From the NCBI RefSeq assembly GCF_900496995.4, contig NC_044024.1, positions 1,798,001 to 1,862,000 on the forward strand: a stretch of 64,000 nt of DNA. The letters run 5' to 3'. Origin of the DNA: Aquila chrysaetos chrysaetos (Eukaryota > Chordata > Aves > Accipitriformes > Accipitridae). How positions within the stretch are numbered: position 1 is the stretch's first letter; every line of letters starts with the position of its first letter. The position numbers were made by a program, and so were the translations under genes. The notes under the pieces were generated by a model, which saw only the letters and a program-made list of their open reading frames with translations, was not told where the DNA came from and made no database searches. Shown piece by piece: positions 7,601 through 10,600 of the stretch.

Positions 7601-10600
7601 GACAAGACCTCAGATCAGTCTGGTCTTTGAAATCAGCTTACAAAAGCAACAGAGCAAAATCCAAGATGTTCTACTTGAGCCAGCTTTGGATGTTGACCAC
7701 CTAGTATCTCTTATGCCCTCCTGGGAGCTAGGAATAACTGCAGCTCCCTAACTGAATAACCTGGCATTTAAGATTTGAGGCTTTCTAATTTCTATCAATC
7801 AAAATCCAATTTCATGTGGAACTGGAAAACGCAATGGGATAATTTCAGCTTTGGATTATTTCCTGATAGTACATAAGTGAAGTAGATTGTGTGTGCAGCT
7901 GGCTCAGCACTGCCATAAGAATTAAAAATACCAGAAAATTGTTTGAAACATAGCTACAGTTGAAGTTTCTGTAGCACTAGAAATTCTTGTTTTAGAAGTT
8001 TAGTGTAAGTGACAGTAGTCCTGATCTAGGCTAGAATTTGGAGTTATGGTGTATATCTAGGTATAAGTAAAAGAAGCTGCCTTGCCTTGCTTTTTAAAAG
8101 GAAGTTAGATTTGTGTTAGGCTGAAATACTAGGCCTTTTAAGGCTGGACAAAGCTGCAGTATCAGTCTGAGCTTGGTCACATTTTTCGAAATGGAATACA
8201 GCATATTGGAAGCCATTCATCTTACGGTAAAAACCAAGTGATGATGCACATTCTGAGGCCAAAAAGCTGACCTAAAAATAGCACTGTTCTTATTTGGTGC
8301 AGCCAGTTAAGTTTTTCTTTCCTGTTAATGTTGCTTCAGTTGGTGGCTGCTCTTATCCTGCAGTTTTCTTTTTATAATTTTTGGACTATTTTTCTTTGCT
8401 TTGGTTTTTCTTTTCTGTGATTTGTTCTCATTGCTGTAGACAGGTTTCTATAGAGGAGGGTGAGAGAAAAGCCCAAGAACTGAATATGATGTATTTTGAA
8501 ACCAGTGCTAAAGCAGGATATAATGTGAAACAGGTATGTACAGGGTATTGATCAGAGATGCAAATGCAGGTGCTTGCTCGCAAGCAGCATCCGAGCGCTT
8601 GCTGTTGCACTGCACTTGCTGCTGGAGCCTTTCTGAAATCTTTCTGTAACCTCATGGAGTTCCCTTCTGTTGACTTGCGAAACTGCTTTTTGTATCAGGT
8701 GCAGCGTATGGGGATTCTTCCTTCCCTTGAGGATGCTGTGAATGAGGCTCAAAATGTACTGCACAAACTTCATCCTGTGCTGATCATCCATTATTAATAG
8801 TCATAAGTCCAGGCGTTCCCTGGGTAACCTACCTGAGGTTGTTTCATTCTTAGCTGGAGGACCTAGGGGACGTAAAGACTCAGAGGTGCTGAGGTCTCCA
8901 TTGGTGGACTATGCACCCTTGTAAGGGGTGGTGAAGCGGCCCTCCACTGAAGAGCGTCTCAGTCACAGACATCTCTAACTCTTCCTGTCTGTTCTTCCTT
9001 TCTGTCTTTCTGCTTCTGTTTGCATCTTTGTCCAGGCAAATCACTACAGAAGAAGGTGAACAGAGAGCCAAAGAGCTGAATGTGATGTTTATTGAGACCA
9101 GTGCAAAGACTGGATACAATGTGAAACAGGTAGATCAATGTTTTGCTCTAAAGAGAGGAAATCTGTACTCACTGCTCTGTATGTGTATGCTTCTGCTTGG
9201 GGTTCATGTTCCATCAGATATTTGCTTGTATTGTTTGATGTCAACCCCTGAAATGCTTCTTGCCCAAAGGTCACTGTTGCTGCTTTACCTAGTGGAAGCT
9301 CCTCTCCTGTCAAGTCAATGATTTCCTGTTAAAGTTAAGCAAACTTACCTTGAAAGAAAGGAGAATCTAAAACCAGAATGTGCTGAGGGATAGGAATGGA
9401 ACTGTTTTGTGCAGCCAGTCAAATGTAATTTTGTACATTCCCTTTGCTTTTGTTAACAGTTCATGCACTGTTTTCTAAAATCAACGTTGACATCAGTTGG
9501 GATAAGTGCTTATGCTGATGCACTAGAGTAGAAGTTCCTGCTTCTGTTTGCAAGCCACAGAGAAAAATCTTGGATTAGTCGAGGTTGGAAGGGATCTCTG
9601 GAGATCGTCTAGTCCAACCGCCATGCTCAGAGCAGGCTGCCCAGAACTAACTCCAGTTGAGTTTTGAATATCTCAAAGAATAGAGACTCCATCTCTCCAG
9701 GCAACCTGTCACAATGTTTGGCTATTCATACAGTAGAAGAAACTTTAAACTTTTGTCTTGCGTTTAAACGGAATTTCCTGTATTTCAGTTTGTGCCCATT
9801 GCCTCTTGCTATAAGCTTGTGATCCCACTCTCCATTAGTTCAGGAATTATTCTGAAGTGTAACAGAACTTGGGGAGTAAGGCAGCCGTAAGGTCCAGGGG
9901 TCTGCAGGGAGCATAGTACTGTTGGTGTCAGCTGGGAAACTTACCAGTTTGCTGCACACCAGCTGGTTAGGAGAACCTCACAATGGGATTAGGAGACTTT
10001 GGGTTTGTTTCTTTGGGCTATTCTGGATTGAATCCACATTAGTCTTTGGTTCTAACTTAGTGTTGCTTTATTTGCTTAGCGGGTGTTTGCACTGAGAACT
10101 TCTGTGACTAAAAGGATGCTCACTGCAGCGCCTTGTTGGTACCTCAGTGGCTTGATTTTCCAAGTAACACACTTTTGAGGTGTGGATGAGAAGTCCCTGT
10201 CAAGCTACTGTGAGGAAAATCATCATTAGCTGATGATTCCTCTGGTTCTTTATGCAGCACTTATCACCAGACTGCCTAGCAGTGTCTGTATTGTGTTAGT
10301 TGCTGCATTAATGTCAGCAGGAGGAGCTCTAACATTGACTTGAAAAATTATGCAAAACCATTTTCTGTTTTTTTTATGGGGATATGATAGTCCTTTCCAG
10401 CTCTAGCACATCCTTAATAGCTTAAATGCAGCTCGCTTGAGCCAGCTGTTCTGCTCAGAAATGGCTGGTTTGCAGCAAGATTGAACTGAAAGGATGGGCT
10501 GTAAAACCTCAGTTATTCCACAGACTTCTTAAACCTTCGGTCTCTTGCAAGGTTGCTTATCAGAAGTCTAGAGTTGTGCACTGTAACATTGCTGTGTGCA

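Follow-up and report, generated by a model that had tools for sequence, protein, structure and literature searches.

A second candidate pair of alternative exons in a probable RAB41 gene: anatomy, reading frame and possible origin

RAB6-type GTPases act as switches of Golgi traffic, and an intact gene of this family, probably RAB41 as judged by its KIF4 neighbour, lies in the 64,000-nucleotide stretch analysed here (contig NC_044024.1, positions 1,798,001 to 1,862,000; referred to as the window). Besides an exon 4 pair of the RAB6A/RAB6A' type, this gene carries two versions of exon 6, named 6a (8440..8533, + strand) and 6b (9036..9129, + strand). How is a gene with two such pairs read, and where does the second pair come from? 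We propose that each mRNA most likely contains a single exon from each pair, which would give up to four isoforms of 211 amino acids, and that selection between the two probably takes place at the 3' splice sites, which are marked by AG-free pyrimidine tracts of unusual length and, for 6b, by a predicted branch site far upstream. The reading frame would enforce this choice: an early stop arises when both 6a and 6b are present, and such mRNAs should be removed by nonsense-mediated decay (NMD), while those with neither would lose the G5 loop and the prenylated tail. Exon 6 would have been duplicated long ago, before RAB6A, RAB6B, and RAB41 separated, with RAB6A keeping the A-type copy, RAB6B the B-type copy, and the gene in the window both. 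For this explanation as a whole, we estimate a probability of roughly 0.6.

Exon pairs, reading frame and splice signals

Exons 6a (A-type, ending in KAGYN) and 6b (B-type, ending in KTGYN) are both 94 nucleotides (nt) long, have the same phase, and are open in the frame given by exon 5. They are separated by an intron of 502 nt (8534..9035, +) and share 75% identity at the DNA level and 68% at the protein level (21 of 31 residues). Exon 6a is flanked by the acceptor gctgtag/A and the donor CAG/gtatgt, and 6b by tgtccag/G and CAG/gtagat. Scored with a consensus matrix against the 4735 AG and 3715 GT sites on the + strand of the window, the acceptor and donor of 6a lie at percentiles 96.2 and 99.8, and those of 6b at 97.4 and 95.9. 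Additionally, among 522 AG...GT pairs with a spacing of 94 nt on both strands of the window, the only one that matches both splice scores of 6a is 6a itself. The neighbouring exons 5 (5683..5794, +) and 7 (10944..11010, +) are single copies by sequence and copy search. An earlier reading of this stretch, made from the letters alone (the sequence-only reading), had placed both copies of exon 6, the end of exon 5 at 5794, and the start of exon 7 at 10944, and it is confirmed to the base.

The exon 4 pair, also recognized in that reading, consists of 4a (1522..1627, +; RAB6A'-like, I..DSA) and 4b (5312..5417, +; RAB6A-like, V..DST). Both are 106 nt long, open, and bounded by canonical AG/GT signals, and 30 of their 35 amino acids are in common. 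A tandem CAGCAG acceptor at 4b (window 5306-5311) could insert one glutamine ahead of VRLQLW, and a long CT-repeat tract is located upstream of the same exon (window 5220-5311), with 17 PTB-type motifs in 150 nt. Searches with tblastn and blastn, covering the adjacent upstream stretch L010 and the first 14 kb of the window, found two copies each of exons 4 and 6 and one of every other exon; beyond these, only weak matches with E above 0.05 were returned in the same region. Exons 1-3 lie directly upstream of the window (L010:5778-5856, 7492-7550, 9309-9362). The last intron (11011..11559, +) is of U12 type by sequence, with the donor GTATCCTT and the branch site TTCCTTAAC judged against the U12 consensus, and the coding part of exon 8 (11560..11624, +) ends in SGCSC and a stop. 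Similarly, the last intron of RAB6A looks U12-type (L011), with the donor GTATCCTT and the branch site CCTTAAC.

With exons 1-3 added, all four combinations of 4a or 4b with 6a or 6b read as uninterrupted RAB6 proteins of 211 amino acids, and the four isoforms that had been anticipated are thus possible as far as the reading frame goes. All four end in SGCSC, a CxC motif of the kind that is doubly prenylated. The Ras domain PF00071 was scanned for in two of them and was found both in the 4a/6a isoform (E 1.6e-59, 200.6 bits) and in the 4b/6b isoform (E 2.2e-60, 203.3 bits). For the 6a and 6b versions alike, the best PDB matches are Rab6A, Rab6B, and RAB-PROTEIN 6 (2y8e), the last of which we take to be fly Rab6.

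Other combinations break the frame. Because 94 nt is not a multiple of three, inclusion of both 6a and 6b shifts the frame, as the sequence-only reading had pointed out, and translation stops after 175 residues, 140 nt ahead of the last junction; by the 50-55-nt rule, such an mRNA is a predicted target of NMD. When neither exon 6 is present, the stop comes after 159 residues at the last junction, and both G5 and the C-terminal cysteines are lost. Inclusion or skipping of both exons 4 likewise shifts the frame. Therefore, a complete protein needs one exon from each pair.

The ten residues that distinguish 6a from 6b correspond to RAB6A positions 136, 137, 138, 143, 144, 146, 150, 152, 153, and 159, in a numbering that assumes V62 to be the first exon 4 residue, set via Q72. 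Exon 6 presumably encodes alpha-4, beta-6, G5, and the start of alpha-5, and the ten differences would then fall in alpha-4, in beta-6, and beside the SAK (G5) motif, which is itself unchanged between the two copies. An effect of exon choice on nucleotide handling is possible from these positions. The classical switch interface is less likely to be affected by exon 6 than by exon 4, and a strong effect on effectors would be a guess, because the exon 6 region lies off the classical Rab effector surface.

The AG-free zones upstream of the alternative exons measure 66 nt for 4a, 71 nt for 4b, 74 nt for 6a (8364..8437, +), and 65 nt for 6b (8969..9033, +), and those before 6a and 6b are pyrimidine-rich. 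At nine ordinary U2-type exons of the window gene and RAB6A, the zones span 19-48 nt. A zone of at least 65 nt is therefore present at 4 of 4 alternative exons vs 0 of 9 ordinary ones (p 0.0014), where the nine leave aside RAB6A exon 4 and the U12-type acceptors of exon 8 in the window gene (74 nt) and in RAB6A (35 nt). For comparison, 377 acceptor-like sites on both strands of the window have a median zone of 20 nt, and 2.1% of them reach 65 nt or more. The sole branch motif in the 6b zone is CTAAC (8975..8979, +; A at 8978), located 58 nt before the exon and predicted by motif match only. Long AG-free zones with distant branch points are described as marks of alternatively spliced exons in the excerpted text of Gooding et al. 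2006 (PMC1431707). Such signals suggest that the exon may be chosen at the 3' splice sites, with wrong products removed through the frame shift and NMD.

Two means of mutual exclusion, both known and neither obligatory, are named in the excerpt of PMC5740500: steric interference, when the donor lies less than 50 nt from the branch point, and a mismatch between U2 and U12 splice sites. Steric exclusion was rejected here, as the distance from the 6a donor to the predicted 6b branch A is about 444 nt, which is too long. U2/U12 incompatibility was also rejected, the introns around the exon 6 copies being GT-AG and of U2 type by sequence. PTB-type motifs within 150 nt upstream number 17 at 4b, 11 at 6a, 8 at 6b, only 5 at 4a, and 7 at exon 8, with 3-5 at the ordinary exons 2, 3, 5, and 7 and with 4 and 3 at RAB6A exons 5 and 6. 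The alternative exon 4a thus stands at the level of ordinary exons, and these counts are not used as proof. No RBFOX motif occurs within 150 nt on either side of 4a, 4b, 6a, and 6b.

Selection on the exon 6 copies and their relatives

Differences were counted by codon position and compared with Fisher tests, using exon 6 of RAB6A from the same genome (contig C19, L012) as a reference. Exon 6a differs from it at 4 of 62 first and second positions and at 14 of 31 third positions (p 2e-5), exon 6b at 7 of 62 and 13 of 31 (p 0.001). The two copies differ from each other at 11 of 62 and 12 of 31 (p 0.04). The patterns against RAB6A point to purifying selection on both 6a and 6b. When 18 random substitutions were introduced into RAB6A exon 6, 0 of 20,000 trials gave as few as 4 amino acid changes, although this test is too lenient because RAB6A is itself constrained. 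The probability that drift produced at most 4 amino acid changes and no stop is 0.053, 0.008, or 0.0008, with 9, 11, or 13 changes on the 6a branch, respectively. Judged from one genome, constraint on 6a is likely, not proven.

Five trees were compared for the 31-amino-acid exon in five sequences (6a, 6b, RAB6A, human RAB6B, and fly Rab6). The best one is ((RAB6A,6a),(6b,RAB6B),fly). The three trees that join 6a with 6b were rejected (approximately unbiased (AU) test, 0.00125, 0.0002, and 0.00025; 17 parsimony steps vs 12), and the two unrejected trees pair 6b with RAB6B and leave 6a outside that pair. It had been noticed from the letters that one copy resembles RAB6A and the other RAB6B, and the tree tests bear this out, placing 6a with RAB6A and fly Rab6 and 6b with human RAB6B; as far as these tests reach, neither copy has the other as its closest relative. 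Specifically, of the 31 residues, 2 differ between 6b and RAB6B, 4 between 6a and RAB6A, and 10 between 6b and 6a. The RAB6A exon 6 peptide has one version for this genome and human, and the B-type is the derived one because the A-type is common to fly and RAB6A.

At third positions, 6a and 6b are diverged (12 of 31) about as the window gene is from RAB6A in exons 2, 3, 5, 7, and 8 (56 of 115; p 0.42). A recent duplication was rejected, as the flanks of 6a and 6b have no intron similarity, and the same is true of 4a and 4b. From these affinities, the exon 6 pair probably predates the split of RAB6A, RAB6B, and RAB41, or it came by transfer between paralogs. The third-position divergence of 4a and 4b (9 of 35) is below the paralog level of 56 of 115 (p 0.019), and the exon 4 pair may have undergone sequence exchange or extra constraint.

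A search of the same genome with an exon 6 query returned RAB6A, 6a, 6b, and then one weak match (E 0.38). RAB6A on C19 (L011-L013) has a single exon 6, and tblastn of its introns 5 and 6, both fully read, found no second one. RAB6B was not found in whole-genome protein searches with window-gene, A-type, and B-type exon queries. Its expected place is on contig C10, between SLCO2A1-like OATP exons (C10:29534963-29550309, +) and SRPRB (C10:29561367, -), in a region that adjoins transferrin; the gene names beyond Pfam families and the human gene order used are assumed here. The interval read comprises 40 kb without N (C10:29520001-29560000) and ends 1.4 kb short of SRPRB. A relic resembling RAB6B exon 8, NIKLDKPQEVPASK, is present at L041:4242-4283 (E 2e-4, reached by 0 of 100 dinucleotide shuffles), and the U12-type branch motif TTCCTTAAC still stands upstream of it. 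The rest of RAB6B was found neither in the 40 kb read on C10 nor in the whole-genome searches. RAB6B has thus most likely been lost in this genome, and no B-type exon 6 other than 6b was found in it. In mammals, Rab6B is brain-specific and Rab6A ubiquitous according to the excerpted text of PMC7360120, and for this reason 6b may be a neural exon, which we offer purely as a suggestion.

Weighing the evidence and rival explanations

Several observations weigh against the explanation proposed above. If half of the 18 differences from RAB6A arose on the 6a branch, neutral drift has a p of 0.05. Moreover, 6a departs at four residues on which fly Rab6 and RAB6A agree (K146Q, V150M, F152Y, and I153F in RAB6A numbering), and given these changes 6a could be less constrained. 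At four-fold sites, 6a and 6b differ at only 1 of 7, vs 26 of 39 between the window gene and RAB6A (exons 2, 3, 5, 7, and 8; p 0.015), a low count that a younger split or a later exchange between 6a and 6b could explain. DNA sites uniting 6a with 6b number 7, those uniting 6a with RAB6A 12, and those uniting 6b with RAB6A 10. The tree test is based on just 31 residues and five sequences, and one genome was examined, through its sequence signals. Regarding splicing, the 71-nt zone of 4b requires that its tandem acceptor be ignored, as it otherwise shrinks to 1 nt, and zones of 65-74 nt fall under the 100-nt class in the excerpt of Gooding et al. 2006 (PMC1431707). Competing RNA structures among the three introns were rejected, since in each of the 3 pairings at least 1 of 20 block shuffles paired better.

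Taken together, the protein evidence agrees with an exon 6 duplication that preceded the paralog split or happened at about the same time. A fuller scenario can be sketched tentatively, and we would put it somewhat below even odds: the single RAB6 of the vertebrate ancestor had both pairs, each mutually exclusive, and its B-type exon 6 may have been neural; once the genome had duplicated, the A-type became fixed in RAB6A and the B-type in RAB6B, while the window gene keeps the full set, and its 6b isoform, as the last B-type RAB6 in this genome, perhaps covers for the lost RAB6B. The probability of this scenario was lowered because of the four-fold-site count. The same count is what speaks for a younger, lineage-specific tandem duplication whose copies converged on RAB6A and RAB6B residues. 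Against it, the protein trees joining 6a with 6b were rejected, such convergence would require 5 extra parallel changes, and the flanking introns retain no similarity; we regard this origin as highly improbable. Transfer between paralogs, in which exon 6 of RAB6A arrived as 6a or that of RAB6B as 6b by ectopic conversion or insertion instead of an old tandem duplication, would explain why 6a is RAB6A-like and 6b RAB6B-like, and it predicts the same tree. However, the introns around 6a and 6b have no similarity to RAB6A introns except for one repeat-like match in intron 6b-7, which looks to us like a bird CR1. At third positions, 6a differs from RAB6A (14 of 31) as much as the gene does elsewhere (56 of 115), and with 6a at paralog-level divergence any transfer would be about as old as the paralogs themselves. 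On the RAB6B side, only the relic of that gene was found in this genome. We regard a transfer as unlikely.

A similarly unlikely alternative to the use of both exons is that the gene in fact relies on one exon 6, the other copy (6a or 6b) being a duplicate that is idle or in decay, a splice-competent fossil. In favour of this, 6a has changed four residues that fly Rab6 and RAB6A have in common, and the conservative neutral test is borderline, with a p of 0.05. Nevertheless, third-position divergence is near the paralog level, and a neutral exon that old should have lost the features that are still intact here, namely frame, length, splice sites, a strong donor, and ETSAK; the probability of a stop alone is 0.32-0.50. 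If, instead, joint inclusion of 6a and 6b were a deliberate NMD product that tunes gene dose, exon 6 would act as a regulated poison switch rather than as a choice between proteins. The frame shift and the position of its stop, 140 nt before the last junction, would suit this role, but each of the two exons encodes an alternative peptide that is complete and conserved, a property for which a poison exon has no use, and we consider this role improbable.

Gene identity, surroundings and known systems

Downstream of the gene, a PDZ-domain open reading frame (window 20449-20784), which we take to be PDZD11, is followed by kinesin exons (23386-23706 and 27241-27570) with KIF4 as the best PDB match. 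These neighbours match the order RAB41-PDZD11-KIF4A that we assume for human Xq13. ARR3 would presumably be expected on the other side of RAB41, and of 12 arrestin_N matches in the genome, none is on contig C21, which is why the gene is called only a probable RAB41 ortholog. In the excerpted text of Kloepper et al. 2012 (PMC3425129), Rab41 is presented as an expansion that arose later and only in primates and dolphins. That a bird-like genome has an intact gene where RAB41 probably belongs speaks for an earlier origin. Farther along the window, a long open reading frame (55582-56382) encodes a rhodopsin-type receptor (PF00001), which reads to us like one of the ghrelin/motilin type. A tRNA scan of the window found none, which has no bearing on the exon pair. 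Searches for relatives in viral and prokaryote collections gave 2 and 33 pattern matches, none of them confirmed, and among the 50 matches listed in a search for retrocopies as a record of spliced isoforms, none spanned a junction at RAB6-level identity.

The sequence-only reading knew of no such pair in RAB6A or RAB41, and in the full-text literature searched we came across no exon 6 pair for RAB6A, RAB6B, or RAB41; genome annotations are outside that search, and automatic gene models may list both exons. Its interpretation of the locus is partly supported. Mutually exclusive tandem exons are an already known mechanism, and this RAB6 case is unusual because the two exon copies match two sister genes.

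The exon 4 pair of RAB6A/RAB6A' in human and mouse, whose primary paper is reportedly Echard 2000, is a case of tandem homologous exons used alternatively in the same gene family. The window exons 4a and 4b show the same I/V difference at the first residue and the same A/T difference as the Rab6A PDB chains 4dkx and 3bbp. Whereas that known pair is exon 4, on the switch II side, the extra pair here is exon 6, which is single in the RAB6A of this genome. The excerpted text of PMC1950890 mentions a splice event of the substitution type for RAB6A of human and mouse. The human mutually exclusive clusters of Hatje et al. 2017 (PMC5740500), as excerpted, include 377 (60%) that are frame-incompatible, and some genes have several clusters. 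Like 6a and 6b, those clusters include adjacent homologous exons not divisible by three, whose joint inclusion leads to a stop; their splicing was validated by junction reads, whereas that of 6a and 6b is predicted. No word beginning with 'rab' occurs in the main text of that article. In U2AF1, the duplicated exons 3 and Ab are chosen through 3' splice site signals, including a long polypyrimidine tract (PMC5224494, in excerpt), and their branch points and regulators were mapped experimentally, while those of the window gene are predicted from signals.

Use of both exon 6 copies would allow a single small GTPase gene to yield up to four proteins that differ on the switch II side and in the helix/G5 region. 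A parallel for the proposed history comes from the tropomyosin genes, in which, as Irimia and colleagues reportedly described in 2010, exon duplication was followed by gene duplication and paralogs kept different exon sets. The likeness lies in the order of events, exon duplication before gene duplication; the family is a different one, and one genome is considered here. If the history proposed for the window gene is true, it would be a datable case in which splice isoforms, once the gene had been duplicated, came to be divided among genes of their own, while one gene retained the initial arrangement and perhaps makes up for its lost paralog RAB6B.

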